Source: Bacteroidota bacterium (GTDB taxonomy: Bacteria > Bacteroidota > Bacteroidia > NS11-12g > UBA955). From it: a stretch of DNA of 64,000 nt. Both the position numbers and the translations under genes were made by a program. Each line of letters opens with the position of its first letter. Position 1 is the first letter of the stretch. Shown here piece by piece: positions 2,323-19,463 of the stretch. The notes beneath the pieces are model-generated. The model was given only the letters and a program-made list of their open reading frames with translations, did not search any database and had not been told where the DNA came from. Where the stretch lies: the NCBI GenBank assembly GCA_030834125.1, contig JAURFW010000005.1:1-64000 (forward strand). The letters are read 5' to 3'.

Positions 2323-2701
2323 TTCGGTCCTCATTTTTAAATTACACGGGTCTTATTATTACTAGAGTTTTTTTAATGATATATTGTTTTATGCAATTTA
2401 AGACGTTGGAATACATTTAATCGAAATAAGCAGGTTATTAGACCTTACAATCAACAACCCTAACACCACCCATCATTTCTTTTTTATAATGTAGGCTCGA
2501 CATGTTGTTCTCTAAATGTTCATCGTCTTTCATTTACTCTTTTGCTTATTTTTTATTAGGTATATAAACTTATTTAAGCAAAAATTAAAATTTATAAACC
2601 ACCATTTATAGATAAATTTAAAAATAACCAGATTGTTTTCTACAATATTTATATTATTATTGAAAATAATTAACTTTATCTATCAATAAAAAATCAACAG
2701 T
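2323..2701. other. AT-rich intergenic region, no gene seen
   Basis: No open frame with family-like sequence and no strong hairpin was found. The last 60 bases contain a TAACTTTA element about 30 bases before the next start, one mismatch from the Bacteroidota -7 box TAnnTTTG, so the right end probably holds the promoter of the next gene. Confidence 0.4.
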
Positions 2702-3013
2702 ATGAAACTATTAATCTCACTTTTCGGTTGGGTACCTGTATTAGGAAATGCACTAAAAATGGCATACATTTCGCAACGAGTTAAAGAAGCTATTAGCAAT
2801 GTTCAAGTGTCTAACGACAAAGCCAATGAACAAGCCGAAGAATCTGCTAAATATTTTGAACAGTTGGCCAAAGAAACTTACGATGAGCATATTCAACCGC
2901 AAATTGATGAATTAGACATACCTGATATAGTTAGTGGCAAATTAAAGGAAAAATCTGTAAGTACTATTAGTAATGCTTTAAAAGATAAATACTTAAAAAA
3001 GACTAATGGTTAA
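2702..3013 (+). CDS. Small helical protein of unknown function
   Basis: The product has 103 residues. A short hydrophobic N-terminus (LLISLFGWVPVLGNAL) is followed by a charged, Ala/Glu/Lys-rich helix (residues 25-65) that looks like a coiled coil. No family is recognised. The N-terminus could be a membrane anchor or signal. The start at ATG 2702 follows a near-consensus promoter. It is probably not in the same operon as the next gene (64-base gap). Its AT-rich surroundings and lack of neighbours with known function suggest an accessory gene. Confidence 0.6.
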   Translation: MKLLISLFGWVPVLGNALKMAYISQRVKEAISNVQVSNDKANEQAEESAKYFEQLAKETYDEHIQPQIDELDIPDIVSGKLKEKSVSTISNALKDKYLKKTNG

Positions 3014-3077
3014 CATTAAAAATTTGAATAAATAAAAATAGTTTGGTTTCTTTGTAGAAAATTAATAATAAAGAGAT

Positions 3078-3737
3078 ATGAAAAAATTTATTATTTTATT
3101 ATATGTTATTGGTACTATTCTATCATTAACAGTTGTATGGCTAATATACAAAACATGGACTGTCTTTGGATTTTGGACTATTTTTTGGACTGGCGCGGTA
3201 ACTGGTTTAACAGGTCTAACTTTAGGACAGTTAGTAGGTTCTAGGGTTGAATCAAACGGGAAAATTACGTACAATCCTAAAGAATGGCCAAAACTTATTC
3301 ATATCATAGTTTGTGTTCTAGTTGGATATTATCTCTACACAATTATCTCCGGTCCAGAAGTTCAAGGTTTTGATTATTATTATGGTTTAACCTATTTAAT
3401 ACTTTTAACGGCCTTACCAATATTGTGGAGTACATACAAGCTTTTCCGTGATCGTAATGATTTTGTGGAAATTGATGAAAAGTTCATTTCATACAAAGAC
3501 AATAAAAAAATGGGGAAGTTTGAAATATCTAATATTAGTAAAATTGATGGTGTATTAACTCTTCACTTCAATGATGAAACAACTCACGAAATAGATCTAA
3601 AAAATATGAACTTTAACTCCGCAGATAGTGTTTCCTTAATAAAGGATATTAAATCCCGGTTGCCTAAAAAGGTTGAGAGCGAAAATACTCCTGATGATAA
3701 TGGGTTAGATTTATCCGACTCAGAGACAATAGAGTAA
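3078..3737 (+). CDS. Four-helix membrane protein with cytoplasmic tail, unknown function
   Basis: The product has 219 residues. Hydrophobic segments lie near residues 3-23, 29-50, 70-90 and 98-118. The second is Trp/Phe/Gly-rich (FGFWTIFWTGAVTG). A soluble domain follows from about 125, with alternating strands of the kind seen in membrane proteins with a small PH-like cytoplasmic domain (FVEIDEKFISYKDNKKMGKFEISNIS is only suggestive). The tail is acidic. No family is recognised with confidence. It has its own ATG after a Bacteroidota-like CTTTG box at about 3045. Confidence 0.6.
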   Translation: MKKFIILLYVIGTILSLTVVWLIYKTWTVFGFWTIFWTGAVTGLTGLTLGQLVGSRVESNGKITYNPKEWPKLIHIIVCVLVGYYLYTIISGPEVQGFDYYYGLTYLILLTALPILWSTYKLFRDRNDFVEIDEKFISYKDNKKMGKFEISNISKIDGVLTLHFNDETTHEIDLKNMNFNSADSVSLIKDIKSRLPKKVESENTPDDNGLDLSDSETIE

Positions 3738-4318
3738 CATAAAAATTATTGATCAATAGTTTTTCTAAACAGAAAAATTTCATTTATTCGAATATTTTGA
3801 AAACTATGTAAACTAGTTTTTTTGGATTGCAAATCATTTTTTAGAAAACAATAGATATTTATCTAATTTAACTTATTCTAATTTCTTATTGCTTTTAAGG
3901 AAGTATATCATTCTTTGCTCAAGTTAATGCAACCGTTTTACCTTTGAGAGGTAAAACTGGTGTTTTTATTAAAACCCTTAGAATTAGGGGTTAAGGGTTG
4001 ATTTTGCATATATTACTGTTGGTTATAAAAATATATATTTTATTGAACTTATTAATGCCGAGGTAACTATAAAAAGAGATGTGCTGCAATCAATTCAAAA
4101 ACTTTTACAAAAAGTAATAAAATTACTCCAATAAATAGGGGGTATACGGTATTTTTAAAGGATTACAAATCAGGAATTTGTTGAAGAGTTGACTCAGTTT
4201 TTTTACGTCATGTTGATTGTTTGCTTCAACAAAAAAAATAGTTTTATATTCGCTAATTGTACTTTATACAATAATATCGAAAAAGCACTACAATAAAGGG
4301 AGTAATATCTAGAGGAGA
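3738..4318. other. Long non-coding gap before the glucan cluster
   Basis: There are 581 bases without an intact gene. An 8-bp inverted repeat AACCCTTA/TAAGGGTT (3973-3980 and 3992-3999) has an 11-base loop but no T run. The middle holds a decayed reading frame (see 3988-4134). The right end carries the promoter region of the phosphorylase gene and an AGAGGAG Shine-Dalgarno-like sequence just before ATG 4319, which is unusual in this window. The unusual leader could be where the glucan cluster is controlled. Confidence 0.45.
3988..4134 (+). pseudogene. Possible LytTR-domain remnant
   Basis: A stop-free stretch without a start codon reads RVDFAYITV, GYKNIYFIELI, then TIKRDVLQSIQKLL and ends at TAA 4132-4134. 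The pattern of a hydrophobic strand followed by IYFIE and a conserved-looking VLQSIQKLL helix resembles the start of a LytTR DNA-binding domain (usually ILYIEA...SLK.LE..L). A second frame just upstream (about 3912-3985) reads QVNATVLPLRGKTGVFIKT, which could be the preceding part, now out of frame or broken by a stop. If so, a response regulator once stood here. Similarity was judged by eye only. Confidence 0.3.
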
Positions 4319-7300
4319 ATGCAAAAACTGAGCAATATTTTTCAAGGGAATCAACAACTCCAACAAAATTCAACTACACCAGAGGGAGTTGAGGTTGAGT
4401 TGAATGGAGAAGTCTTTTATAAAATTTCATATGTGGATGCGATGCGTCCATTTTTTATTAGTGTCGTTAGTAATTCGGATCACTGGTTGTTTGTTTCAAG
4501 CAATGGTGGAATTTCTGCCGGACGGAAAAACAGCGACTTTGCTTTATTTCCTTATTACACCGATGACAAAATCACTGAATCTAATGAAAATACCGGCTGT
4601 AAGTCTATCTTTTTAGTAAGCACAGACGGAAAGACATTTTTGTGGGAGCCTTTTTCCAATAGGCAAAAAGGTATCTATAGCATTTCTAGAAACATCTATA
4701 AAAATGCCTTTGGAAATAAAATAATTTTCGAAGAATTTAACCACGATTTAGAATTAGTTTTTACCTATGAATGGAATTCGAGTGAGAAATTTGGTTTTAT
4801 CCGTCATTCAAAAATTAAAAATCTATCAAACATTGTTTCTCAAGTCCGTGTCCTTGATGGTATTCAAAATATATTGCCTTATGGAGTAGAACAGGCACTT
4901 CAAAATAGCACAAGTAACTTAGTAGATGCTTACAAAAAATGTGAATTAGAGGAAGATTTTGGTTTAGGAATATATTCTCTCAGTGCCATAATAGTTGATA
5001 AAGCAGAACCGAGCGAGGCACTAAAAGCTAATACCGTTTATTCTGTTGGTCTAAATAGCCCAATTCGACTAATTTCTTCGTTACAATTGGAATCATTTAG
5101 ATTAGGAAATATTGTTAAAGAAGAGCGAGATATTCGTGCTGAGAAAGGTGCCTATTTCTTGGTAGATGAGATACAAATTGCTCCTAACTCCGAAGAAAAG
5201 TGGAGTATTGTTGCAAATGTCAATCAGTCAATGAAAGACATTGTAAACATAACGGAATCATTAAAAAACCCAGACAATCTTAAGCATCAGATTCATGAGT
5301 CAATCGAAAAAGGCACACAAGAATTGATAGCTTTGGTTGCAGGTGCTGATGGTATTCAGTTATCACAAGATAAAACACGCAATGTTAGACATTTTGCTAA
5401 TACCATGTTTAACATTATGCGAGGAGGTATTTTTGATAATAATTACGCTATTGAAAGAGATGACTTCAGTGAATATCTCAGAAAAGCCAATTTAAAATTG
5501 TATAAAGACGTTGAGTCTAAAATCAATGAATTACCGGTTAAGTTTGATTTAACATTTTTGAAAGATTGGGTTACAAAAATTGGAGACAAGGATCTTCAAA
5601 GACTCAGTTTAGAATACTTACCCCTAAAGTTCAGTCGTAGACATGGCGACCCGAGCCGGCCTTGGAATAAATTCTCTATAAATACAAGGAATGAATATGA
5701 TGGTTCTAAGATTTTAGATTTTCAAGGAAACTGGAGAGATATTTTTCAAAATTGGGAAGCTCTAGCTCACTCATATCCAGAATTTATTGAGGGTATGATG
5801 GTGAAATTTTTAAATGCTTCTACTTTCGAAGGATACAACCCTTACCGAGTTACTAAAGAAGGCTTCGATTGGGAAACTATTGAACCTGATAATCCCTGGT
5901 CTTACATCGGTTATTGGGGGGATCATCAAATAATCTACTTGTTAAAATTCCTAGAATTTATCGAAGATTATTATCCGCAAAAATTACAATCCTACTTCTC
6001 AAAAGATTTCTTTGTATATGCTAATGTTCCATACAAGATAAAATCATACAGCGATATATTGACCGACCCCAAAAATACCATTGAATTTGATCATGCTGCG
6101 GAAAAAAATATACTAGAAATTCGAGAGAAAATTGGTTTTGATGGCGCTTTATTAAGAGAGCAATCTGGTAATATATATACCGTTAATTTTATTGAGAAAA
6201 TCCTTGCAACCTTGCTAGCCAAGATGTCAAATTTTATTCCTGAAGGAGGAATTTGGATGAATACTCAACGACCGGAATGGAATGATGCAAATAATGCACT
6301 AGTAGGGAATGGGGTTTCAATGGTTACCCTCTATTATTTAAGAAGATTTGTTGGTTTTTTTAAGGAAATTTTAGAAGCTCATAAAAATATTACTGTATTA
6401 ATTTCTGAGGAATTAATTACCTTTTTTAATCAGGTGTTAAATACACTAAAGATTCATCAAAGTTTATTATTTGGTCGTTTTTCTGATAAGCAAAGAAAAG
6501 AAGTTTTGGATGGATTAGGTAAGTCAGGAAGCGATTACAGAAATAAAGTTTATCAAGAAGGATTTTCAGGTACGAAAAAAGAGTTTAACCTTAAGGATTT
6601 TCTTGAATTTTGCGATTTAACAATTTATTATCTTGAGCATTCTATTGCTGCAAATAAGCGGGATGATGGACTATACCATGCTTATAATCTTATGACACTT
6701 CAAAACTATGATGAAGTTTCCATTTCTTATTTATCAGAGATGTTAGAAGGACAAGTAGCAGTTTTAAGCTCTGGATTTCTTTCTACTAATGAGAGTTTAA
6801 AGGTACTTGAATCTCTGCGAGCAAGTGCTTTATACAGACCTGATCAAAATAGTTATTTGTTATATCCAAATAAAGAATTACCAAGATTTATTAATAAAAA
6901 TAATATTTCTAAAAAACATGTAGAATCTTGTGAATTACTGTTGCAATTATTGAAAGATGGCAATTCACAAATAATTGTAGAAGATGCTCTTGGTGGGATT
7001 CACTTTAATGGAAATTTTAAAAATGCCGATGACTTAAAAAAGGCATTGCTCAACTTGCCAAATAAATATTATTCTCTTGTTCAAAAAGAAAAAGGAATAA
7101 TCCTAGAAATATTTGAGTCAATATTCAATCATAAATCCTTCACTGGTCGTTCTGGTACATTCTTCGGATATGAAGGACTAGGTTCTATTTATTGGCACAT
7201 GGTTTCAAAGTTACTCCTTGCTACTTATGAAGTTACCAATAAGGTAATTGATGAAAATTCATTAGAAAATATTGCCGAATTTAAGTCTCACTTCCATGAG

Positions 7301-7783
7301 ATTAATAAAGGCATTGGTGCACATAAGGAGCCTACAGAATATGGAGCATTCCCAACGGATCCCTATTCTCATACCCCTGCAGGTAAGGGAGCACAGCAGC
7401 CCGGTATGACTGGTCAGGTGAAAGAAGATATTTTAAGCAGGTTTGGCGAACTTGGAGTTATTGTAAGAGAAGGAAAATTGATGTTTAATCCTGTAATATT
7501 GAATTCAAGTGAGTTCTTAAATAGCCCGAAAACATTTGTTTATTACAATATTCATCAGGAACGCTGTGAGGTATACCTGAATACTAATTCGTTGGCATTT
7601 ACTTACTGTCAAGTACCTGTAATTTATGAGCAATCTGACAAACAATCTATTACTGTAGAAATGGAAAATGGCAAATCTGTAGTTTTTAATGGGAGTGCTT
7701 TAGACTCAAAAATAACCACATCTATTTTTAATAGAAGCGGCTCAGTAAAAAGAATTTATGTTAAGATAGTTGAGAATTCTTAA
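4319..7783 (+). CDS. Beta-1,3-glucan phosphorylase-like protein (GH94/GH149 type)
   Basis: This is a very long (1154-residue) cytoplasmic protein with no signal peptide. The N-terminal part (SDHWLFVSSNGGISAGR, then ALFPYYTDDKI) has the beta-sandwich signature of the GH94-like phosphorylases. A (alpha/alpha)6-barrel part follows, with RPEWNDANN; its D656 aligns with the catalytic general acid Asp of the xWND motif in cellobiose and chitobiose phosphorylases. Length well above GH94 (about 800), and neighbours GH17, GH30 and a sugar symporter, point to family GH149, beta-1,3-oligoglucan phosphorylase, which makes alpha-glucose 1-phosphate. GH161 is the main alternative. It is the first gene of the cluster and has AGAGGAG just before the ATG. 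Family is inferred by motif and context; specificity is not shown by the sequence. Confidence 0.8.
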   Translation: MQKLSNIFQGNQQLQQNSTTPEGVEVELNGEVFYKISYVDAMRPFFISVVSNSDHWLFVSSNGGISAGRKNSDFALFPYYTDDKITESNENTGCKSIFLVSTDGKTFLWEPFSNRQKGIYSISRNIYKNAFGNKIIFEEFNHDLELVFTYEWNSSEKFGFIRHSKIKNLSNIVSQVRVLDGIQNILPYGVEQALQNSTSNLVDAYKKCELEEDFGLGIYSLSAIIVDKAEPSEALKANTVYSVGLNSPIRLISSLQLESFRLGNIVKEERDIRAEKGAYFLVDEIQIAPNSEEKWSIVANVNQSMKDIVNITESLKNPDNLKHQIHESIEKGTQELIALVAGADGIQLSQDKTRNVRHFANTMFNIMRGGIFDNNYAIERDDFSEYLRKANLKLYKDVESKINELPVKFDLTFLKDWVTKIGDKDLQRLSLEYLPLKFSRRHGDPSRPWNKFSINTRNEYDGSKILDFQGNWRDIFQNWEALAHSYPEFIEGMMVKFLNASTFEGYNPYRVTKEGFDWETIEPDNPWSYIGYWGDHQIIYLLKFLEFIEDYYPQKLQSYFSKDFFVYANVPYKIKSYSDILTDPKNTIEFDHAAEKNILEIREKIGFDGALLREQSGNIYTVNFIEKILATLLAKMSNFIPEGGIWMNTQRPEWNDANNALVGNGVSMVTLYYLRRFVGFFKEILEAHKNITVLISEELITFFNQVLNTLKIHQSLLFGRFSDKQRKEVLDGLGKSGSDYRNKVYQEGFSGTKKEFNLKDFLEFCDLTIYYLEHSIAANKRDDGLYHAYNLMTLQNYDEVSISYLSEMLEGQVAVLSSGFLSTNESLKVLESLRASALYRPDQNSYLLYPNKELPRFINKNNISKKHVESCELLLQLLKDGNSQIIVEDALGGIHFNGNFKNADDLKKALLNLPNKYYSLVQKEKGIILEIFESIFNHKSFTGRSGTFFGYEGLGSIYWHMVSKLLLATYEVTNKVIDENSLENIAEFKSHFHEINKGIGAHKEPTEYGAFPTDPYSHTPAGKGAQQPGMTGQVKEDILSRFGELGVIVREGKLMFNPVILNSSEFLNSPKTFVYYNIHQERCEVYLNTNSLAFTYCQVPVIYEQSDKQSITVEMENGKSVVFNGSALDSKITTSIFNRSGSVKRIYVKIVENS

Positions 7784-7790
7784 TTTACTC

Positions 7791-9059
7791 ATGAATAAAT
7801 TCAAAAAATCAACATATAGTAACCCATATTTATATTTAATCTTAGTCTGTTTATTTATCAGTTCATTTCAACTTAATAAACCAATTATTGTGAAGAAGAA
7901 AATTAGCGCTGCTCAATTGTTGAGCGATCCAAAAATGAAAGCCATGTGTTATGGTGGATATCGCGGTAATTCAAGAGAAATTCAACCTTCTATCTCAGAG
8001 CTCAAGGATGATATAAAAATCATGCATGCCATGGGAATTCGTATAATTAGAACGTATAATTTACAGTTCCCTCACGCCTCTAATGTGATTAAAGCTATTG
8101 ATGAATTGAAGAATGAAAATGAGGATTTTGAGATGTATGTGATGTTGGGAACATGGATTGACTGTAAAAATGCTTGGACAGGCATGGAGCCTGACCACAA
8201 TGATGAAAATGAGGAAAACAATTCATCGGAAATAGCAAAAGCGGTTACTCTAGCAAACGCCTACCCAGATATTGTTAAGATTATTGCTGTTGGAAATGAA
8301 GCAATGGTTCATTGGGCTTCAAGTTACTTCGTTCAACCACGTGTTATTTTAAAATACGTAAGATTTCTTCAAGAACAAAAGAAAAACGGAAAATTACCTG
8401 AGGAGACTTGGATTACTTCTTCTGATAATTTTGCCTCTTGGGGTGGAACTTCAGAGTATCATAATGATGATCTGAAGCAATTAATTGAAGAGGTAGATTA
8501 TATTTCACTTCATACTTATCCATTTCATGACACGCATTACAATCCTTCATTTTGGCATACCTCCTCTTCTGATTCAGCGTTAACTTCTACAGAAAAGGTG
8601 GAGAATGCGATGGACAGAGCTAGAGACTATGCTAGGAATCAATTTAATAGTGTAAAAAATTATATTGAAGAACTTGGCATAGAAAAGCCAATTCATATTG
8701 GAGAAACTGGATGGGCATCGGTTTCAAGAGGATTCTATGGTATGAAAGGATCACACGCTGCTGATGAATATAAACAAGCTTTGTATTATCAAAAAATGAG
8801 GGAATGGACTTTAGAGAATCATATTACTTGTTTCTTTTTTGAAATGTTTGATGAACCTTGGAAAGATGCAAATCATCCTCAAGGATCTGAAAATCACTTT
8901 GGACTTATTACTGTAGACGGAAGAGCTAAAAGGGCACTTTGGAATATGGTTGATGAAGGTGTTTTTAGTGATTTTACAAGAAATGGTGTAAAAATTCAAA
9001 AAACATACGGTGGTGATGATAAATCACTTTGGAATCATGTTCTACCACCTAACCAATAA
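7791..9059 (+). CDS. GH17-like glucan hydrolase with N-terminal membrane anchor/signal
   Basis: This is a (beta/alpha)8 glycosidase of clan A, family GH17 type. The predicted acid/base is E170 in VGNEAM and the nucleophile E305 in IGETGWAS. CYGGYRG near the start of the barrel and FFFEMFDEPWK near its end also fit GH17. Residues 13-30 (YLYLILVCLFISSF) form a signal or anchor, without a good lipobox, so the enzyme is in the envelope or outside. ATG 7791 was chosen, 7 bases after the phosphorylase stop; a TTG at 7770 would overlap that gene. Expected substrate is beta-1,3-glucan; transglycosylation is also known in the family. It overlaps the next gene by one base (TAATG), suggesting translational coupling. 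Confidence 0.82.
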   Translation: MNKFKKSTYSNPYLYLILVCLFISSFQLNKPIIVKKKISAAQLLSDPKMKAMCYGGYRGNSREIQPSISELKDDIKIMHAMGIRIIRTYNLQFPHASNVIKAIDELKNENEDFEMYVMLGTWIDCKNAWTGMEPDHNDENEENNSSEIAKAVTLANAYPDIVKIIAVGNEAMVHWASSYFVQPRVILKYVRFLQEQKKNGKLPEETWITSSDNFASWGGTSEYHNDDLKQLIEEVDYISLHTYPFHDTHYNPSFWHTSSSDSALTSTEKVENAMDRARDYARNQFNSVKNYIEELGIEKPIHIGETGWASVSRGFYGMKGSHAADEYKQALYYQKMREWTLENHITCFFFEMFDEPWKDANHPQGSENHFGLITVDGRAKRALWNMVDEGVFSDFTRNGVKIQKTYGGDDKSLWNHVLPPNQ

Positions 9060-10093
9060 TGATGATTAAAACAGCAATTGGAATATCGTTGAGTTTGATA
9101 ATTTGTGCAGGTTTTGCATGTAAGACTGTGAAGCAAAATTTTACTCAAAAGATTTCTATTGCTAATAAAAAAATATTTATCAATAAAACTCCATACTATA
9201 TTAAGGGCATTTGTTATCACCCGGTAGAAATTGGCGAGACTACTCGCAATTTTAAACAACTTGACAAGGATTTAACTCTGATGAGAGAGGCTGGAATTAA
9301 TACAATTCGAGTATATCAGCCTATCGATAATAAGGAGGTTCTCGATAAAATTCATAACGCTGGAATCAAATTAATTATAGGGATAGGATATAATCAAGAC
9401 GGAAACTTCGATATCCTGACAGGTACTTATTTAGATTATATTGAGAAGTATAAAAATCATCCGGCTATTTTGATATGGGAATTAGGAAATGAATACAACT
9501 ATCATCCCGAATGGTTTGGGGGAGATATTCAGAATTGGTACAACGCCATTAATTCGGCTTCAAAAGCAATTAAACAGATAGATTCCAATCATCTTGTTTC
9601 AACTGCGCATGGAGAGATGCCTTCTAGAGAATTAATTGCTGCATTAACCGATTTGGATATTTGGGGATTAAATATCTATCGTTGGGATCAACCGCAAACG
9701 GTATTTCAGGAATGGAAATCATTGACTGATAAACCGGTTTATTTGTCAGAGTCGGGTGCTGATAGTTATATGAAGATAAGTAAGGCTGGTTTTGAGGAAG
9801 GGGTAAATCAAAATGCTCAAGCAAAAGCAAATGCCACTATAATTGATTCAGTTTTCAAATATTCCCATCTTAATGCAGGAATGGTAATATTTTCGTTTAC
9901 AGATGGTTGGTGGAAGGCTGGAAATCCTAATAAACAGGATGTTGGTGGTTGGGCACCGAATAGCAGTGGGGTCCCATATGATGGTGCGCCAAACGAAGAA
10001 TATTGGGGAATCGTAGATATTTATCGCAACAAGAAACAGACTTTCGACACAATAAAAAAACGTTTTAATTCATTTCCTCTCAATCATAAATGA
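9059..10093 (+). CDS. TIM-barrel glycoside hydrolase lipoprotein (GH2/GH5-like)
   Basis: The product has 344 residues. The signal peptide ends at a Cys (AGFAC, residue 21), a weak but plausible lipobox, so it is probably lipid-anchored. The barrel starts with YYIKGICYHPV and continues with a GINTIRVYQP strand. The acid/base is probably E145 in WELGNEYN and the nucleophile E231 in LSESGADS. Such proteins are usually labelled GH2 TIM-barrel proteins; a remote likeness to GH72 glucanosyltransferases (KGVxYQP start) is worth noting given the glucan setting. There are no GH2 sandwich domains. Substrate is not readable from sequence. It overlaps the next gene by 4 bases (ATGA). Confidence 0.75.
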   Translation: MMIKTAIGISLSLIICAGFACKTVKQNFTQKISIANKKIFINKTPYYIKGICYHPVEIGETTRNFKQLDKDLTLMREAGINTIRVYQPIDNKEVLDKIHNAGIKLIIGIGYNQDGNFDILTGTYLDYIEKYKNHPAILIWELGNEYNYHPEWFGGDIQNWYNAINSASKAIKQIDSNHLVSTAHGEMPSRELIAALTDLDIWGLNIYRWDQPQTVFQEWKSLTDKPVYLSESGADSYMKISKAGFEEGVNQNAQAKANATIIDSVFKYSHLNAGMVIFSFTDGWWKAGNPNKQDVGGWAPNSSGVPYDGAPNEEYWGIVDIYRNKKQTFDTIKKRFNSFPLNHK

Positions 10094-11592
10094 TGAAGAA
10101 ATTTATAAATATTAGTATCTTAATTTTTATAATTAGCATGGGTATATTAGATATTCAGGGGTGTAAAGAATCTGATTTAAATATTGAGGTATTTGAAACT
10201 TCTGAAAGTGGTCATAAACTAACGAAGTTGAATATTTTTGAGCCAAACGACTATATTTCAGTAATTGAAATCAAACGAGAAGAAAAATTACAGGAAATAA
10301 TAGGTTTTGGAGGAGCGTTCACAGACGCTTCAGCCTGTAATTTATACCAATTAAGCCCTGCTAAAAGGGAAGAAATTTTAAAAGCGTATTTTAGTGAAAA
10401 TGGCGCGGCTTACTCCCTTAATCGTACGCACATGAATTCTTGCGATTTTTCAAGATTTCAATATTCATACGCTCCAATAGAGAACGATACCAACTTAAAT
10501 CATTTCAGTATTCAAGCCGATAGTGAATTTTTAATTCCTATGATTAAGGAGGCAAAAAAGTACTCTAAAAATGGATTCAAACTATTTGGATCACCTTGGA
10601 CTGCACCGCCATGGATGAAAGATAATAAGTCCTGGGTTGGAGGAAAATTACTTCCAGAATATTATGAAACCTGGGCTAAGTTTTTCTCAAAATATATTGA
10701 AGCTTACAAAAAAGAGGGAATTGATATTTGGGGACTAACGGTGGAGAATGAACCCATGGGAAATGGCAATAATTGGGAAAGTATGCACTTTACGCCTGAA
10801 GAGATGACTCATTTTGTAAAGGATTATTTAGGACCAATACTTGAGAATGATGGTAGAGATGATGTTGTAATTTTGGGTTATGATCAAAACAGAGCCGACT
10901 TAATAAATTGGGTAGATGTGATGTATGCCGATGAAGAAAATTCAAAATATTTTGATGGTACTGCCGTTCATTGGTATGAAAGTACGTATGATTATTTCCC
11001 TAAAGAGCTTCAATACGCACATTCAAAAGCTCCAAGTAAATTATTACTTCAAACTGAAGCATGTATTGATTCAGAGGTTCCGGTATGGAAAGATGATAAG
11101 TGGTATTGGAAAAAGGAAGCCACTGATTGGGGTTTTGATTGGAGGCCTGAGGAGTTGAAATATTTACATCCTAAATATGCTCCTGTAACTAGATACGCTA
11201 GAGATATAATTGGATGCTTAAACAATTGGGTTCAAGGCTGGGTTGACTGGAACATGATTTTGGACAAACAAGGAGGTCCGAATTGGTTTAATAACTGGTG
11301 TATCGCGCCTGTAATTGTAGATCCTAAAACCGATGAAATATATTACACTCCTTTGTATTATGTGATGGCTCATTTCAGTAAATTTATACGTCCTGGATCG
11401 CACATCATAAAGTCTACTCACACCGACGCCGATCTTATGGTAGTTGCTGCTGAAAATAAAGATGGTTCGAAGGTGGTTGTGGTTTTTAATGAGGGAGTTG
11501 AATCTAAGTCATTTAAATTGCAATCAACTAACTTAAATAAAATCATCACGATTGGCCCTCAGTCAATTCAAACGATTTATATAACTAATTAA
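10090..11592 (+). CDS. GH30-family glucanase lipoprotein (probable beta-1,6-glucanase)
   Basis: The product has 500 residues. The signal peptide ends in the lipobox IQGC (Cys 25). The GH30 signature is clear: GFGGAFTDASA, SPWTAPPWMK, the acid/base E221 in VENEP and the nucleophile E323 in LQTEACID, followed by the usual C-terminal beta domain (VVVVFNEGVESKSFKLQ). Members of this family include glucosylceramidases and beta-1,6-glucanases. In Bacteroidota laminarin loci the usual job is removal of beta-1,6-linked side chains, which fits the GH17 and phosphorylase neighbours. It starts within the stop codon of the previous gene and has 11 bases to the symporter. Confidence 0.88.
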   Translation: MMKKFINISILIFIISMGILDIQGCKESDLNIEVFETSESGHKLTKLNIFEPNDYISVIEIKREEKLQEIIGFGGAFTDASACNLYQLSPAKREEILKAYFSENGAAYSLNRTHMNSCDFSRFQYSYAPIENDTNLNHFSIQADSEFLIPMIKEAKKYSKNGFKLFGSPWTAPPWMKDNKSWVGGKLLPEYYETWAKFFSKYIEAYKKEGIDIWGLTVENEPMGNGNNWESMHFTPEEMTHFVKDYLGPILENDGRDDVVILGYDQNRADLINWVDVMYADEENSKYFDGTAVHWYESTYDYFPKELQYAHSKAPSKLLLQTEACIDSEVPVWKDDKWYWKKEATDWGFDWRPEELKYLHPKYAPVTRYARDIIGCLNNWVQGWVDWNMILDKQGGPNWFNNWCIAPVIVDPKTDEIYYTPLYYVMAHFSKFIRPGSHIIKSTHTDADLMVVAAENKDGSKVVVVFNEGVESKSFKLQSTNLNKIITIGPQSIQTIYITN

Positions 11593-11603
11593 AAACAGAA
11601 AAT

Positions 11604-13037
11604 ATGCAGGCAAATGAAAATCAACAACAAAGAAGTATATCATGGGGTGAGAAAATAGCTCTTGGTTTCGGAATGTTAGCCAATCAGATGTTTCCTGCCG
11701 CTTTAGGAGTTTTTATTATTGTTTTGGTTCAAGATTTAGGATTTGCCGCTATTTTATGGGGAATTATTCAGTTTGCACCTAGAGTTTTTGATGCGCTAAC
11801 AGACCCAATAATGGGATTCATCTCGGATAATACAAAATCAAAATGGGGTAGACGCCGTCAATATATTCTAATTGGTGGGATTATAATGGGTTTGTCTTAT
11901 GTGGCAATGTGGCAACTTCATAAGGAGAGTGGGGTTACCTACAATTTCATTTATTTTTTATCTTGGTCGCTTGTTTTTTATTTAGGTTACACAATTTTTA
12001 GTGTTCCTTATGTTGCATTAGGATATGAAATATCTGATAACTTCCATGAAAGAACTCAGGTAATGGCAATTGCTCAATTCATTGGTCAATGGGCATGGGT
12101 AATTGCACCGTGGTTTTGGGTTATCTTGTATGATCCCAAATGGTTTCCGGACGGCGCTGGTCAAGGGGTAAGAGACTTATCAATTTGGGTTGCTATTCCT
12201 TGCAGTTTGTTTGCAATTATTCCGGCACTCTTTATCAAACAGAAATCAACTTTAGATAGGAAAGATTTTCTTCCTATTACCGCGGGATATATTAATAAGA
12301 GTCTCGGGGGTATCTTTACATCGGCCTTTGAAGCATTTAAAATTAAACAATTCAGAAAGATCTCAGCAGCCACATTTTTAATTTTCAATTCATTTAATAT
12401 TATTGCCTCATTTACCTTTTTGATCATCGTGCACTACTTATTTAATGGTAGTCCAGCAGATGCCGGAAATTGGCCTGCTATGCATGGATCAGTGGGGGCG
12501 TTAATTACTTCTTTTTTGGTTATTCCAACAATAGCATTTATGTCTAAGAAATTAGGAAAGAAAAGGGCATTTATTATTTCCCAACTCATTTCTATTATCG
12601 GATATATACTTTTTTGGTTCCTATTTGTTCCGGGAAAACCCTACTTGTTTTTATATGCTTTACCATTCCATTCTTTTGGTATTGGTAGTTTGTTTACAAT
12701 TATGATGAGCATGACAGCAGACATTTGCGATTTAGATGAGTTAGAAACAGGAAAACGTCGTGAAGGGGTATTGGGAGCTGTGTATTGGTGGATGGTAAAA
12801 TTAGGTTTTGCAATTGCCGCTTTAATAGGTGGATTAATACTTACAGTAGTAGGCTTTGACGCAAATAATGTCACGGAATCAGCTATCAAAGGAATGCGAT
12901 TATTCTATACAATTCTACCTATAGCTGGTGTTCTAGGTGCCATTTGGGTGATGAGAGATTATAATATTACTGAAGAAAGATCACAAGAAATAAAAGAACA
13001 GTTAACTCTAAAACGAAAAGCTCAAAATAATAATTAG
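11604..13037 (+). CDS. GPH-family sugar:cation symporter (MFS)
   Basis: This 477-residue protein has about 12 membrane helices. The conserved loop between helices 2 and 3 reads ALTDPIMGFISD...KWGRRRQYI, the hallmark of the glycoside-pentoside-hexuronide:cation symporter family (MelB type), and DLDELETGKRREG is the matching motif in the second half. Placed between glycosidases and cytoplasmic GH17 enzymes, it is the likely importer of glucan oligosaccharides across the inner membrane. No SusC/SusD pair accompanies it, so outer-membrane uptake must use another route. Spacing to both neighbours is below 12 bases. Confidence 0.88.
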   Translation: MQANENQQQRSISWGEKIALGFGMLANQMFPAALGVFIIVLVQDLGFAAILWGIIQFAPRVFDALTDPIMGFISDNTKSKWGRRRQYILIGGIIMGLSYVAMWQLHKESGVTYNFIYFLSWSLVFYLGYTIFSVPYVALGYEISDNFHERTQVMAIAQFIGQWAWVIAPWFWVILYDPKWFPDGAGQGVRDLSIWVAIPCSLFAIIPALFIKQKSTLDRKDFLPITAGYINKSLGGIFTSAFEAFKIKQFRKISAATFLIFNSFNIIASFTFLIIVHYLFNGSPADAGNWPAMHGSVGALITSFLVIPTIAFMSKKLGKKRAFIISQLISIIGYILFWFLFVPGKPYLFLYALPFHSFGIGSLFTIMMSMTADICDLDELETGKRREGVLGAVYWWMVKLGFAIAALIGGLILTVVGFDANNVTESAIKGMRLFYTILPIAGVLGAIWVMRDYNITEERSQEIKEQLTLKRKAQNNN

Positions 13038-13042
13038 AAGTC

Positions 13043-13927
13043 ATGTCTTACAGGAAAGAAAAGTTTAAATCATTACTCGGGGTAGATACCAATCTATTAG
13101 ATACAGCGTCATTAAAAACAATGAGTCGGTCTATTTTGGATGCAGGAATGCATGGATTCTGTTTTAGTCCATATGAGGAAGGTCAAAAGCCGGGTGATCC
13201 AATATCCGAAGAGCAAATAAGGAGAAAATTAGATATTATTCGTCCTTACAGCAATTGGATTAGAATCTTTTCATGTACAGAAGGAAATGAACAGATTCCT
13301 GTGATTGCAAAAGAATATGGAATGAAAACCTTGGTTGGTGCTTGGTTAGGTGATGATCCTGAGGTTAATCAAAATGAAATCAAAGGATTAATTCAATTAG
13401 CAAAGTCTGGAGTTGTTGATATTGCTGCTGTTGGGAATGAAGTAATGTATCGCGGGGATTTGGAGGAGGATGAACTTATTAACTTCATTCTTCAGGTTAA
13501 AAGTGAAATTCCTGAAATCCCTGTTGGTTATGTAGACGCTTACTATGAGTTCACCGATAGGCCTAAAATAACAGAAGCTTGTGATGTCATTCTATCCAAT
13601 TGTTATCCATTTTGGGAGGGCTGTAGTATTGAATACTCATTAGTGTATATGAAGCAAATGTATTATCAAGCATGTGCTGCAGCTGCTGGTAAGAAGGTTA
13701 TAATCACTGAAACAGGATGGCCTAGTAAAGGAGGAAGTCTTGACGGGGCTCATCCTTCTTATGAAAATGCATTGAAATATTTTATCAATGCACAGATGTG
13801 GTCTAAGCAAGATAACATTGAAATGTTCTACTTTTCAGCATTTGATGAATCTTGGAAGGTTAGTGCTGAAGGTGATGTGGGAGCATATTGGGGACTTTGG
13901 GATAAGGATGAAAAATTGAAGTTTTAA
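13043..13927 (+). CDS. Cytoplasmic GH17-like enzyme
   Basis: The product has 294 residues and begins MSYRKEKFKS, with no signal peptide or membrane segment. GH17-type catalytic motifs are intact: acid/base E133 in AVGNEVM and nucleophile E223 in ITETGWPS. FSPYEEGQKPG near residues 38-48 fits the first barrel strand and MFYFSAFDESWK the last. Because it sits right after the importer and lacks a secretion signal, it probably acts on imported beta-1,3-linked oligosaccharides, by hydrolysis or chain transfer. It is divergent from the other two GH17-like proteins of the cluster. The following gene starts 7 bases downstream. Confidence 0.78.
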   Translation: MSYRKEKFKSLLGVDTNLLDTASLKTMSRSILDAGMHGFCFSPYEEGQKPGDPISEEQIRRKLDIIRPYSNWIRIFSCTEGNEQIPVIAKEYGMKTLVGAWLGDDPEVNQNEIKGLIQLAKSGVVDIAAVGNEVMYRGDLEEDELINFILQVKSEIPEIPVGYVDAYYEFTDRPKITEACDVILSNCYPFWEGCSIEYSLVYMKQMYYQACAAAAGKKVIITETGWPSKGGSLDGAHPSYENALKYFINAQMWSKQDNIEMFYFSAFDESWKVSAEGDVGAYWGLWDKDEKLKF

Positions 13928-13934
13928 AGTTCCA

Positions 13935-14864
13935 ATGAATTATCAGCATTGCTTGCAAATTGCGGTTGGTAATGCAGTTTGCTACTCTGGATTCAGAGAA
14001 GGCCAGCGACCTGGAGTGCTTTTTCCTGCTTACGAACAAGTAAAAGAAGATTTACTCATTATTCAAGAGCATTGGCAATATATTAGATTATACAGTTGTG
14101 ATAATCATGCATTAACTGTACTTGATGTAATTGAGAAGGAAAAACTTCCTATCAAGGTTATACTTGGGGCTTTTATTGAGGCTGAAATTAATAACCCAAA
14201 TTGTCCGTGGGGTGGAGTCTACTCACAAGAAAAACTATCTGAAAATCAAAATCAGAACCTTCAAGAGGTACAAAAGCTAATTCAATTAGCCAATACCTAT
14301 CCTGAAATTATTTTTGCTGTTTCGGTAGGAAATGAAGCCTGTGTGAGATGGACAGATCATTTAGTTCCAGTAGACAAAGTCATCAATTATATAGAAAAAG
14401 TCAAGTCTGGAGTTAAACAACCTGTTACTTTTTGTGAGAATTATGTTCCATGGTTAGATATATTGGAGCCATTAGCGGAGGTTGTTGATTTTATTTCAAT
14501 TCATACTTATCCAGTTTGGGAAAATAAATCTATCGAAGAAAGCATGGAATTTACTGAACAGAATTATCTATCTGTAGCTTATAAATATCCAAATAAATTA
14601 GTAGTTATAACTGAAGCAGGCTGGACGACCGAATCAAATGGGTTTGGTATTCCTAGAGAGAACGTTAATCAAGAAACACAACGCATTTATTATAAAGCGC
14701 TTACTAACTGGAGCAAGAAAAATAATATTCTAACATTTGTGTTTGAAGCATTTGATGAACCATGGAAAGGTTCAAACGATCCAGATGAACCAGAAAAACA
14801 CTGGGGACTCTTTACAGTAGATCGTAAACCCAAACTCACAATGATGGCAACTAGTTATAAATAG
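13935..14864 (+). CDS. Cytoplasmic GH17-like enzyme, second copy
   Basis: The product has 309 residues and no signal peptide. Motifs are VGNEAC (acid/base E134) and ITEAGWTT (nucleophile E227), with YSGFREGQRPG at the first strand, SIHTYPVW mid-barrel and FVFEAFDEPWKG at the end. These GFREGQRPG and FDEPWK patterns recur in the envelope GH17 of the same cluster (GGYRGNSRE, FDEPWKD), so the two may share descent. It is the last gene of the cluster; the next gene starts 139 bases later with its own promoter. A role in processing imported glucan fragments is inferred from context. Confidence 0.78.
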   Translation: MNYQHCLQIAVGNAVCYSGFREGQRPGVLFPAYEQVKEDLLIIQEHWQYIRLYSCDNHALTVLDVIEKEKLPIKVILGAFIEAEINNPNCPWGGVYSQEKLSENQNQNLQEVQKLIQLANTYPEIIFAVSVGNEACVRWTDHLVPVDKVINYIEKVKSGVKQPVTFCENYVPWLDILEPLAEVVDFISIHTYPVWENKSIEESMEFTEQNYLSVAYKYPNKLVVITEAGWTTESNGFGIPRENVNQETQRIYYKALTNWSKKNNILTFVFEAFDEPWKGSNDPDEPEKHWGLFTVDRKPKLTMMATSYK

Positions 14865-15003
14865 TGATTAATTGGTGTTGACTGGTCGCCTGAATCGTCT
14901 TCTTGATCTTGTCACAATAGCGTCAATTATTTCCTTGTCCAATAAAATTATTAAACACTTAATAAAAAGTAACGTCTAATAGTTTTAATTTGATTTGGAT
15001 ATT

Positions 15004-16686
15004 ATGTTCAGACGACAATTTTTACGCCCAAGGAATTTAACTCCTAAACTAGATTCTAAAAATCAAGAATCGAGTAATCATGTGGTTTCCAAGCGCACAA
15101 ATACGGGTTTAGCTGCTTATACCGGTTCATGGACTGATAAGCATCGCATGCATTTGTTACGCAGAACCACTTTTGGACCTAGTATGTCTGATTATAAATC
15201 TTTTAAATCTAAGTCAATGTCTGAATGTGTGGCGTCATTGTTAGACTTATCAAATGTTAATATTTCGCCGCCAGTAAATAATTATCATAATAGCATAAAA
15301 GATCCAAATGTAGATTATGGTAAAACCTGGGTTGATGCCCCATTCGATGGAAACCTTGAAGGCCGCCGCAAGAATAGTTTGAAATCTTGGCTTTGGTCAA
15401 CAGGAGCAGCTGGAACGGGCACAATTTTTGAAAAAATGTGGCTGTTTTGGCATAATCATTTTGCAACTGAAATGAACGTTGTGCCTTCAGCGTCGGCTAG
15501 TTATTACTACTTTAAAACTTTAAAAGATAACGCATTAGGTAATTTTAAAGAGTTAACAAGAGCAGTTACACTAGATCCAGCTATGCTCTATTATCTTAAT
15601 GGTAGATTAAATACAAAAAATGCGCCTGATGAAAATTATGCTCGTGAACTCCAAGAGTTATTTACATTAGGGAAAGGTGCAGATAGTAAATTTAATGAAG
15701 ATGACGTGAAGGCCGCTGCTCGTGTTTTAACAGGTTTTACAATCGATTTCAGAACTACTCCATTTACTACTTTGTTTTTACCGAATAAGCATGATACCGA
15801 CGATAAAGAATTTTCTGATTTTTTTGGAAATACCGTAATAAAAGGTCGTTCTGATTCCAATGGTGGATATGATGAACTTGACGACCTGTTAGACATGATT
15901 TTTTCGGTTGAAGAGGTTTCCAAATTCATTTGTCGTCGTTTGTACCGTTATTTTGTTTATTACGAAATAGACTCAAATGCAGAATCTAATGTAATTGAAC
16001 CTTTGGCAAAAGTTTTTAGAGATAATAATTTTGATATTAAGCCTGTTTTACAAACTTTATTAAGTAGCGAACATTTTTACGACTCATGGAATCAGGCATG
16101 TTTAATTAAAGATCCTTTCAGCCATACTGCAGGTTATATCAAACAATTTCAACCCGATTTCCCGCCATCTAATGATATAGAATCACTATACAAAGCATAC
16201 AGTTTTGGTTGGGCTTATACAACAATTTTACAAATGGATTTGGGGGATCCTCCGAGTGTTTCGGGGTGGGAGGCATGGTATCAAATTCCATTATACCATC
16301 GTATTTGGATAACATCAGACTCATTACCCAAGAGAAATGAATATCAGGATTATTTATTGTGGATTGGACATAAAATTAGCTTCTACACAATTATTGTGAA
16401 CCCTTGGACCTTAACCAAACAATTTGATAATCCATCAAACCCAGATAAACTAATTGAGGAAAGTACTCAATTTTTATTGCCATTTGATTTAAGTGCCGAT
16501 CAAATACAATCTTTGAAGGAAGTTATTTTACCCGGTGGAATTCCAGATTATAATTGGACCGATGATTATCAAGCAGCAACAGACACAACCAACTCAAATC
16601 ACACTACAGCACTCACTAATATAACCTTGAAATTGAAATTGCTTTACAAGGCTATTATGAATTTATCTGAATACCAACTTTCCTAA
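15004..16686 (+). CDS. DUF1800 family protein
   Basis: The product has about 560 residues. DUF1800 landmarks occur in order: HLLRRTTFGPS near the N-terminus, WLFWHNHFATE, a DENYARELQELFTLG block, ARVLTGFTI, FICRRLYRYFVY and GDPPSVSGWEAW. The protein lacks a classical signal peptide and starts FRRQFLRPRN; ATG 15004 is preferred over the TTG at 14995. DUF1800 genes are nearly always paired with a DUF1501 gene, as here 10 bases downstream. Function of the pair is not established; they are thought to be exported and are common in Bacteroidota and Planctomycetes. Confidence 0.85.
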   Translation: MFRRQFLRPRNLTPKLDSKNQESSNHVVSKRTNTGLAAYTGSWTDKHRMHLLRRTTFGPSMSDYKSFKSKSMSECVASLLDLSNVNISPPVNNYHNSIKDPNVDYGKTWVDAPFDGNLEGRRKNSLKSWLWSTGAAGTGTIFEKMWLFWHNHFATEMNVVPSASASYYYFKTLKDNALGNFKELTRAVTLDPAMLYYLNGRLNTKNAPDENYARELQELFTLGKGADSKFNEDDVKAAARVLTGFTIDFRTTPFTTLFLPNKHDTDDKEFSDFFGNTVIKGRSDSNGGYDELDDLLDMIFSVEEVSKFICRRLYRYFVYYEIDSNAESNVIEPLAKVFRDNNFDIKPVLQTLLSSEHFYDSWNQACLIKDPFSHTAGYIKQFQPDFPPSNDIESLYKAYSFGWAYTTILQMDLGDPPSVSGWEAWYQIPLYHRIWITSDSLPKRNEYQDYLLWIGHKISFYTIIVNPWTLTKQFDNPSNPDKLIEESTQFLLPFDLSADQIQSLKEVILPGGIPDYNWTDDYQAATDTTNSNHTTALTNITLKLKLLYKAIMNLSEYQLS

Positions 16687-16696
16687 TTACGTAAAC

Positions 16697-18286
16697 ATGA
16701 AAAGAAGATCATTTTTAAAGGCAGCATCTGCAACCACTGTTATTCCTGTTGCGTTGAATGGAATGCAATTGAGGTCTATTAATCAGAGTTCATTATTAAA
16801 AGCATTAGGTAAAAGAGGTGCAAGTGATAAGGTATTAGTAATTATACAACTTAATGGAGGAAATGACGGTTTGAATACTCTTCTTCCTTTAGATCAATAC
16901 AGCAACTTAAGTAAGGCGCGATCTAATGTGCTTATCCCTGAATCAAATGCTCTAAAGCTAAATGATCACTCTGAAATAGGTTTCCACCCGAAGATGTCAG
17001 GTATTAATAATGTATACAACAAAAAGAAGTTGAACATTATCCAATCTGTTGGCTATCCTCAACCCAATTTTTCACATTTTAGATCTACAGATATATGGAT
17101 GAGTGCTTCCGATAGCAATCAGGTTTTAACTACTGGATGGATGGGACGTTATTTAAATGGGCAATATCCAAACTACCCTGATAATTATCCAAATTCTACC
17201 TATCCAGATCCTTTGGCTATACAAATAGGACCATTAGTCTCTTTGTCGTTCATGGGGCCAAATACGAGTATGGGGATGGCCATTACAGATCCGAGTAAAT
17301 TTTACGAGTTATTAGATAATTCAAGCGGCTCTGTTCCATCTACTCCGGCGGGCGAGGAATTGGCATACATTAGAATGTTAGCACAACAAACTAATGAGTA
17401 CGCCGATGTTATTAAAGCGGCAGCAACATTGGGAAGTAATAAGTCTACAAAATATCCTGTTAATACGGGAAGAAACTCATTATCAGAACAGCTAAAAATA
17501 GTCGCTCAATTAATCTCTGGTGGTCTTTCTACACGAGTATATATGGTTAGCCTCGGTGGATTTGATACACACAGTGCACAAACTGATTCTACTGACACCT
17601 CAATGGGTACACACGCGGATTTGTTAGAGCATTTAAGTGCTTCTATAGAGGCGTTTCAAGATGATCTTGAGCTTTTAGGTGTAAGCGAAAAGGTTACCGG
17701 AATGACATTTAGTGAATTTGGTAGACGTATTCAGAGTAATGCCTCAGGCGGTACCGATCATGGTGCCGCGGCGCCAATGTTTGTCTTTGGAGATGCTATA
17801 CAGCCTGGTGTTATTGGTAATAACCCAAGTGTACCATCAACCACTACGGTTGAAGATAATGTCCCTATGCAGTTTGATTTTAGGCGAGTATATGCTTCAG
17901 TTTTAAAAGATTGGTTTGAGTTGACCGATGCAGAGGTAAAAGGGATCCTTGGTTCAGATTTCAACACTTTACCGATATTTAAAAATAATATTAGCGGTAT
18001 TGATGATTTGGCTGAATTTATGACCCAAATATCATTGAGAAATGTATATCCAAACCCTGCAAAAGAAAGAGCAACTGTCTCATTTACAACAGACGGTGGA
18101 GGCCACTTGAGTCTAGTGCTTTACGATGCCATGGGAAATCAAGTTCATACTTTTTTCAATAAGAGTTTTTCGGTGGGAACTTTTGAACACGAGTTAGATT
18201 TACACGGTTTAAGGCCGGGAAATTATATTCTACAACTGCATTCAGATATGAAAAGCTGTACGCAAACTTTGCAAATTTTGAATTAA
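16697..18286 (+). CDS. DUF1501 family protein with Tat-like signal and T9SS sorting domain
   Basis: The product has 529 residues. The N-terminus KRRSFLKAASATTVIPVAL is a twin-arginine type signal. The body is DUF1501 (sulfatase/alkaline phosphatase superfamily-like): VIIQLNGGNDGLNTLLP, a GFHPKM block, LGGFDTHSAQ, MTFSEFGRR and GTDHGAAAPMFV. From about residue 450 a type IX secretion sorting domain follows (NVYPNPAKERATVSF through LRPGNYILQL). It thus appears to cross the inner membrane by Tat and the outer membrane by T9SS. Co-transcribed with the DUF1800 gene. A metal-dependent hydrolase fold is inferred from the family. Confidence 0.88.
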   Translation: MKRRSFLKAASATTVIPVALNGMQLRSINQSSLLKALGKRGASDKVLVIIQLNGGNDGLNTLLPLDQYSNLSKARSNVLIPESNALKLNDHSEIGFHPKMSGINNVYNKKKLNIIQSVGYPQPNFSHFRSTDIWMSASDSNQVLTTGWMGRYLNGQYPNYPDNYPNSTYPDPLAIQIGPLVSLSFMGPNTSMGMAITDPSKFYELLDNSSGSVPSTPAGEELAYIRMLAQQTNEYADVIKAAATLGSNKSTKYPVNTGRNSLSEQLKIVAQLISGGLSTRVYMVSLGGFDTHSAQTDSTDTSMGTHADLLEHLSASIEAFQDDLELLGVSEKVTGMTFSEFGRRIQSNASGGTDHGAAAPMFVFGDAIQPGVIGNNPSVPSTTTVEDNVPMQFDFRRVYASVLKDWFELTDAEVKGILGSDFNTLPIFKNNISGIDDLAEFMTQISLRNVYPNPAKERATVSFTTDGGGHLSLVLYDAMGNQVHTFFNKSFSVGTFEHELDLHGLRPGNYILQLHSDMKSCTQTLQILN

Positions 18287-18309
18287 TTTCAAAAAAAATA
18301 TCTGGAGTG

Positions 18310-18340
18310 TTGGATTGATTGGTTTTACTTGTTATTTTTG
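18310..18340 (+). promoter_or_regulatory. Promoter of tRNA-Gln (TTG ... TATTTTTG)
   Basis: TATTTTTG at 18333-18340 matches the Bacteroidota -7 box TAnnTTTG exactly. A TTG at 18310-18312 lies 20 bases upstream. The tRNA 5' end is 12 bases after the box. Confidence 0.65.
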
Positions 18341-18352
18341 CACTCCCAAAAT

Positions 18353-18425
18353 TGTCCGATGGTGTAACTGGCAACACGTCTGATTTTGGTTCAGAAGAGT
18401 CTAGGTTCGAGCCCTAGTCGGACAA
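18353..18425 (+). tRNA. tRNA-Gln (TTG anticodon)
   Basis: The acceptor is TGTCCGA/TCGGACA, the anticodon stem TCTGA/TCAGA with loop TTTTGGT giving TTG, and the T-arm CTAGG/CCTAG with TTCGAGC. The D-loop has GG. CCA is not encoded. It sits just upstream of prs and may be transcribed with it. Confidence 0.95.
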
Positions 18426-18479
18426 CAAAAGTGATTTGATGATATCCGGTACAGTGCCGTGAGACAGTAGAATCTTATT

Positions 18480-19463
18480 ATGACATCTTTAATACATCCA
18501 GTAAAAATCTTTGGCGGATCTGCCTCAGTTGAATTAACAAAATCTATTTGTGACTATTACGGAACTATTCCTGGGGATCTCCTAGTGAGTCGTTTTAGCG
18601 ATGGTGAATTTCAACCTAACTTTCAAGAAAGTGTTCGTGGTTGTGATTTATTTATTGTGCAATCAACATTTCCCAGTAGTGATAACTTAATGGAGTTATT
18701 GATGGCAATCGATGCTGCCAAAAGAGCAAGTGCAAATTACATTACAGCAGTAATACCATATTATGGTTTTGCTCGTCAAGATAGAAAGGACAAACCAAGA
18801 GTTTCTATTGCTTCTAAGTTAGTTGCTGATTTGTTGAGTACTGCGGGTGCTGATCGCGTAATGACTATGGAATTGCACGCACCTCAAATTCAAGGATTCT
18901 TCAATGTTCCCGTAGATCACCTTGAAAGTTCAATCATATTTGTCCCGTATATTCAAACTTTAAGTCAAGAAAATTTAGTAATTGCAGCTCCAGACGTGGG
19001 AGCATCTAACCGAATTCGCGAGGTTGCAAAAGTTTTGAATCTTCCAATGGTAATATGTGACAAAGAGCGTAAAAAAGCTAATGAGATTGCTAACATGACT
19101 GTAATTGGTGATGTAGATGGTAAGGATGTTGTATTGATAGATGACATAATTGATACAGGTGGAACTTTATGCAAGGCGGCTCAAATGTTAACCGAGAAAG
19201 GCGCAAAAACTGTAAGAGCGCTATGTTGTCATCCTGTGTTAAGTGGAAAGGCATACGAAAACATTGAGAATTCTATTTTGACGGAATTAGTTGTTACAGA
19301 TTCCATTCCACTAAAAAAGCATACAGATAAAATTAAGGTCCTGTCGGTTGCTCCGTTATTTGCAAGAGCAATAAGAAATGTACATGAGCATGGTAGTATT
19401 AGTTCATTGTATAAGCAGGTTTTAAACTCACAAACGAGTTTAGATCTTCGTCAAATCAAGTAA
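18480..19463 (+). CDS. prs: Ribose-phosphate pyrophosphokinase
   Basis: Makes PRPP from ribose 5-phosphate and ATP in the cytoplasm, feeding nucleotide, His, Trp and NAD synthesis. The 327 residues have the family's usual length. Visible motifs are FSDGEFQPNF near the N-terminus, the ATP-binding ARQDRKDKPR loop, MELHAPQIQGFF and the PRPP loop VLIDDIIDTGGT. It follows tRNA-Gln by 54 bases and precedes rplY by 17, a prs-rplY order seen in many bacteria. Confidence 0.97.
   Translation: MTSLIHPVKIFGGSASVELTKSICDYYGTIPGDLLVSRFSDGEFQPNFQESVRGCDLFIVQSTFPSSDNLMELLMAIDAAKRASANYITAVIPYYGFARQDRKDKPRVSIASKLVADLLSTAGADRVMTMELHAPQIQGFFNVPVDHLESSIIFVPYIQTLSQENLVIAAPDVGASNRIREVAKVLNLPMVICDKERKKANEIANMTVIGDVDGKDVVLIDDIIDTGGTLCKAAQMLTEKGAKTVRALCCHPVLSGKAYENIENSILTELVVTDSIPLKKHTDKIKVLSVAPLFARAIRNVHEHGSISSLYKQVLNSQTSLDLRQIK

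Follow-up and report, generated by a model that had tools for sequence, protein, structure and literature searches.

Gene content and layout of the cluster

The window, i.e. the whole analysed stretch of 64,000 nucleotides from an uncultured Bacteroidota bacterium, carries seven tightly packed ORFs between positions 4319 and 14864, all on the forward strand (Table 1). The gaps between them are, in order, 10, -1, -4, 11, 5 and 7 bases, and with such short spacing a single transcript is likely. Promoter and terminator matches from a scan were no better than chance level. A preliminary description of this DNA had listed seven packed genes with a GH149-like phosphorylase, three GH17-like enzymes, a GH30 lipoprotein and a GPH symporter, which was confirmed by the ORFs and their family matches, including profile matches to PF00332 (GH17) in three ORFs. 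For the GH17A-type ORF an alternative start codon, TTG, is located at position 7770.

Table 1. Genes of the cluster, with positions in the window.
Product	Position	Strand	Remarks
GH149 beta-1,3-glucan phosphorylase (predicted), 1154 aa	4319..7783	+	Without signal peptide, cytoplasmic; phmmer match to 6hq6
GH17A-type endo-beta-1,3-glucanase	7794..9059	+	N-terminal signal, periplasmic; match to 6fcg, catalytic Glu motifs
Clan GH-A (beta/alpha)8 glycosidase, likely lipoprotein	9059..10093	+	N-terminal signal and Cys; PF02836/PF03198
GH30 (GH30_1-like) exo-beta-1,6-glucosidase, probable lipoprotein	10090..11592	+	PF02055, PF17189
MFS_2/GPH-type oligosaccharide symporter, 477 aa	11604..13037	+	PF13347; no GH17 fusion
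Cytoplasmic GH17 (GH17b), MlGH17B / Rhizomucor glucanosyltransferase type	13043..13927	+	No signal; match to 4wtp
Second cytoplasmic GH17 (GH17c), separate subclade	13935..14864	+	No signal; PF00332

The co-localised GH149, GH17, GH30_1 and MFS genes by which a variant-1 laminarin PUL is recognised are all present. On the other hand, a strict definition of a PUL demands a physically adjacent susCD pair, which the cluster does not have, and in published usage it would be named a CAZyme cluster.

Phosphorylase

The sole PDB match of the phosphorylase was 6hq6 (Pro_7066), with 1488 bits over residues 26-1153. The active-site motifs described for GH149, i.e. the catalytic WND and the RD and His motifs of the phosphate site (PMC6771811), are all intact in the protein, and the corresponding residues (W654-N655-D656, R473-D474 and H960) are invariant across 16 homologues. 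The 6hq6 match and the motifs place the enzyme in GH149; judged by its sequence it is a beta-1,3-glucan phosphorylase, with phosphorolysis of laminari-oligosaccharides as the predicted reaction. The genome contains one gene of the PGM (phosphoglucomutase) family.

Accompanying glycosidases and symporter

The GH17A-type protein matched FbGH17A (6fcg) over its full length with 540 bits and contains both motifs with the catalytic glutamates, GNE and GETGW. In profile searches the GH30 protein matched PF02055 (8e-88) together with the PF17189 domain, and the solved structures nearest to it are those of human GBA and related glucosylceramidases. The symporter matched the MFS_2 family at 3.5e-60.

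GH17b gave 136 bits against 4wtp and is 69% identical to a homologue from Flagellimonas (Muricauda) algicola. In MlGH17B of Muricauda the residues Tyr136, Trp191 and Glu192 have been tied to transglycosylation (PMC13188888). All three are conserved at equivalent positions in GH17b, which may therefore be a beta-1,3-glucanosyltransglycosylase rather than a plain glucosidase. Tyr136 is absent from the GH17 domain of the MFS-GH17 fusion protein of Formosa, and it is not conserved in GH17c either. The latter belongs to an eight-member clade of the GH17 tree (support 99/95) and is present in a minority of such loci.

The third gene had been described as encoding a GH2/GH5-like lipoprotein. The barrel of clan GH-A, with GH2 among the nearest folds, was borne out, but assignment to a single CAZy family was not. 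The Pfam matches point to GH2_C and GH72-like TIM barrels, the GH72 match being weak, and the profile search gave 5.9e-12 against 9oro (GH158). The AlphaFold model (pLDDT 79.6) has a (beta/alpha)8 fold that most resembles the barrels of GH2 glucuronidases and of two families of beta-1,3-glucanases, GH157 and GH158, with Z scores of 27.7 to 6ncw (GH2), 27.2 to 9g4n (GH157) and 25.8 to 9p2f (GH158). Identity to any of the GH2, GH157 and GH158 structures is at most 24%, and sequence and structure searches thus gave clan-level kin only. Two glutamates, E145 and E231, are invariant in 13 orthologues.

SusC and SusD elsewhere in the genome

The genome (G000) is a MAG of 2.3 Mb in 94 contigs, 98% complete and with an estimated contamination of 3.3%. 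When it was searched for SusD (PF07980), no match was found on the contig of the cluster (C14, 108,435 bp), neither just beyond the seven genes nor farther away, whereas five other contigs (C36, C15, C7, C91 and C89) did contain matches. The preliminary statement that the cluster lacks SusC/SusD accordingly holds locally but not genome-wide.

One SusC-SusD pair is located at the end of C15 (L040, 14467-18944). Its SusC is 66-70% and its SusD 73-74% identical to pairs directly beside GH149 in two relatives (G035, locus L026; G051, locus L038), in contrast to only 20-34% identity to the other SusCD pairs of the same genome. The gene following the pair, encoding a PKD lipoprotein, is broken by the contig end and resumes at the start of C39. 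The two contig ends are identical over exactly 141 bp, and the ORF reads through the join. The operon across C15 and C39 thus comprises SusC (996 aa), SusD (495 aa), the PKD lipoprotein (456 aa) and a GH16 (379 aa), followed by a secreted GH13. The order SusC-SusD-PKD-GH16 recurs in many relatives, and in two congeners (G001 and G011) the downstream genes also match.

Tetranucleotide correlation to the window was 0.98 for C15 and 0.99 for C39, compared with 0.85-0.97 for the loci of relatives. Given this agreement in composition, and the synteny within the genus, a contaminant origin of the SusCD contigs or a chance overlap is unlikely; the contamination estimate of the MAG leaves a small and improbable chance that one of them is foreign. 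By orthology to the GH149-adjacent pairs, the operon is of the laminarin SusCD type, laminarin being its predicted substrate.

Occurrence of the cluster in other genomes

A survey of 80 named GTDB loci and relatives covered 65 GH149 loci that are flanked on either side by 7.4 kb or more. A SusD homologue was found near GH149 in 24 loci, and in the other 41 there was none within about 7.4-10 kb. The earlier claim that typical Bacteroidota laminarin loci use SusCD is therefore too strong, the more so as CAZyme clusters have been published (PMC5827456, PMC10108472).

The gene order of the cluster recurs elsewhere. It follows immediately on SusC-SusD-lipoprotein-GH16, giving a contiguous SusC-SusD-lipoprotein-GH16-GH149-GH17A-GH-A-GH30-MFS, in four Flavobacteriales records: Winogradskyella vidalii (L056), Algibacter luteus (L090), L054 and L127. 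The order GH149-GH17A-GH-A-GH30-MFS-GH17 was found in a Schleiferiaceae MAG (L057), with no SusCD within the stretch examined, and in a Cryomorphaceae MAG (L067), likewise with no SusCD in a stretch that has only 0.6 kb upstream. The split arrangement was also observed in G045, G053 and the congener G009, where GH149 and the laminarin SusD (beside PKD and GH16) are on different contigs.

Among 57 relatives, nine had both GH149 and the laminarin SusD, eight GH149 only and 13 SusD only, a co-occurrence that was not significant (Fisher p = 0.23). This suggests that other enzymes, too, are served by the SusCD-GH16 module; the pairing of the module with the present cluster is based on orthology.

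PF07980 gave no match in seven of 15 relatives with GH149, and a second SusD Pfam model added a marginal match in one of these, G044. In four of them (G023, G025, G046 and G055) neither of the two SusD families nor a SusC homologue at 1e-10 was detected. The genomes of the GH149 relatives without detected SusCD are 90-100% complete. In G025 and G055 the neighbours of GH149 are GH17A, GH30 and an MFS transporter; these three are broken up in G023, and G046 has a different set. We consider it rather unlikely that these four run a truly SusCD-free laminarin pathway, with oligosaccharides crossing the outer membrane by another route; alternatively, the missing SusCD could reflect the limits of a fast first-pass search. 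The question of a SusCD-free pathway concerns these relatives and not the genome of the window.

Proposed function and alternative explanations

Very probably the cluster encodes those parts of a conserved variant-1 (GH149/GH17/GH30/MFS) laminarin system that work in the periplasm and the cytoplasm, with the outer-membrane half, SusC-SusD-PKD-GH16, encoded at the second locus on C15 and C39. The gene content, the intact motifs, the orthology, the conserved order and the second locus are observed. The route, the substrate and the protein locations are drawn from relatives, and the co-regulation of the two loci and the fluxes are presumed.

Laminarin, which algae store as a reserve sugar, would first be cut at the surface by GH16 and the resulting oligosaccharides imported by SusCD. 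In the periplasm the backbone would be cut by GH17A, perhaps also by the GH-A enzyme, and the beta-1,6 glucose branches would be removed by GH30. Short oligosaccharides would pass into the cytoplasm via the GPH symporter, and phosphorolysis by GH149 would yield glucose-1-phosphate, to enter glycolysis via phosphoglucomutase. The cytoplasmic GH17s may recast chain length or branching by transglycosylation, or trim the chains.

The preliminary description had raised the possibility of an energy-saving phosphorolysis scheme without SusC/SusD. Small oligosaccharides would then enter through porins, and the SusCD of C15/C39 would serve other glucans. The 108-kb contig without SusCD, the four GH149 relatives without detected SusD or SusC, and the weak co-occurrence of GH149 and laminarin SusD across the wider family are in line with such a scheme. 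It is nevertheless very unlikely, since the genome does possess SusCD and GH16, orthologous to the GH149-adjacent pair in L026 and L038, and several Flavobacteriaceae carry the identical cluster order contiguous with SusCD. That contiguity also speaks against remodelling of a cell-envelope or storage beta-glucan, in which GH17 and GH72-like transferases and GH149 in reverse would act on a self-made glucan. The resemblance of GH17b to glucanosyltransferases, the weak GH72 match of the GH-A enzyme, and the storage role floated for MlGH17B products (PMC13188888) would fit remodelling. However, a secreted endo-glucanase, a debranching GH30 and a sugar importer indicate uptake and degradation, and MdoG/OpgG was searched for in the genome and not found; the suggestion of envelope glucan remodelling is thus unsupported, and we regard it as extremely unlikely.

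The sequences by themselves are compatible with more than one substrate, and the GH-A enzyme is assignable to clan level only; instead of laminarin, the target might be a different glucan with beta-1,3 linkages (from fungal or plant walls, mixed-linkage or paramylon). We give this little likelihood, as the nearest counterparts that have been characterised act on laminarin and the combination of GH30, GH17 and GH149 is the published laminarin signature (PMC6246565, PMC10108472). The use of a beta-1,3/1,6-glucan (laminarin) by phosphorolysis, as originally proposed, is supported by the GH149 motifs, the Formosa homologues and the conserved gene order.

The proposed split-locus laminarin system illustrates that a "SusCD-less" verdict reached from the neighbourhood can mislead, as the uptake half may sit elsewhere, hidden by a contig break. 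It also exemplifies how uptake and processing modules for laminarin separate and rejoin from one lineage to another, and it draws attention to relatives in which passage across the outer membrane during laminarin use calls for an explanation.

Comparison with known systems

Five proteins of the cluster have counterparts in the Formosa sp. Hel1_33_131 locus, with identities of 61% (GH149), 56% (GH17A), 62% (GH30), 58% (symporter, compared with the MFS portion of an MFS-GH17 fusion) and 66% (GH17b). This strain is the source of FbGH17A, FbGH17B and FbGH30, and from the species name and the position of the genes we infer that the proteins of the locus are the characterised ones. All three are active on laminarin, FbGH30 as a debranching enzyme, FbGH17A in endo and FbGH17B in exo mode, and the laminarin PULs of the strain are expressed on this glucan (PMC6246565). 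The order GH149, GH17A, GH30, MFS_2, GH17b is shared with the laminarin PUL of Formosa Hel1_33_131 and Polaribacter that is classed as variant-1 (Kappelmann variant B) (PMC6246565, PMC6298971, PMC10108472). In contrast to that PUL, SusCD and GH16 are here at another locus, the MFS is unfused to GH17, and the cluster has an extra GH17 (GH17c) and the short GH-A lipoprotein.

In the laminarin PUL of Muricauda/Flagellimonas (PMC13188888) GH149 likewise lies upstream of GH17A-GH30_1-MFS-GH17B, whereas in our cluster the GH-A lipoprotein is inside the block, GH16 is elsewhere and GH17c is added. Dispersed laminarin genes are known from Maribacter (PMC11345257), where, as in this genome, the genes for uptake and for digestion are spread over more than a single locus; those strains differ in being without GH17 and GH30 and in relying on GH16_3, GH3 and other enzymes.

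In Bacteroidetes, GH149 genes have been described from PULs and also from CAZyme clusters without susCD-like pairs, accompanied by GH17, GH16 and GH30_1 (Kuhaudomlarp et al. 2018, PMC5827456), and among the variant-1 laminarin PULs described in 2023 the one of the NS4 clade is without susCD (PMC10108472). Like the present cluster, these combine GH149 with GH17, GH30 and MFS genes in the absence of local susCD, and we found no essential difference from them. The cluster is therefore a further member of a kind that was known before, rather than a novel scheme without outer-membrane uptake genes.

Relatives carrying a GH149 cluster with no SusCD detected

Four relatives (G023, G025, G046 and G055) each carry a GH149 cluster (loci L027, L031, L037 and L025, respectively) with no SusD (two Pfam families) or SusC (1e-10) homologue detected. 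In L027 the GH30, MFS and GH17b genes are seemingly split into several ORFs, which appear to reflect frameshifts or assembly errors.

Neighbouring genes and other glycan loci

An NrtR/NUDIX-type regulator and a BadF/GlcNAc-kinase-like gene adjoin GH149 clusters in several relatives (L025, L027, L034-L038); in the window neither adjoins the cluster. There, a putative gene pair, named from sequence, starts 130 bp downstream on the same strand, and its second member apparently has a T9SS-type sorting tail.

In the window's genome (G000), the laminarin SusCD-GH16 operon is immediately followed by a GH13 gene in L049, and in the congeners G001 and G011 GH16 is also trailed by genes similar to this one in size and start. 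A stretch of another locus, L039, looks like a beta-1,2-glucan utilisation locus; PF10091 corresponds to the GH144-type 'glycoamylase' family.

Coordinates of the loci and genes described
Feature	Location	Content
GH13 gene	L049 (G000:C39) 2578-5436	alpha-amylase of family GH13, secreted, bearing a T9SS sorting domain
L039	L039 (G000:C36) 5946-18517	SusC-SusD-LamG lipoprotein-PF10091-GH3-PF10091-NrtR regulator, in this order
L027, split genes	L027 (G023) 13410-17334	GH30, MFS, GH17b
Downstream pair	window 14995-18286	DUF1800-like, DUF1501-like
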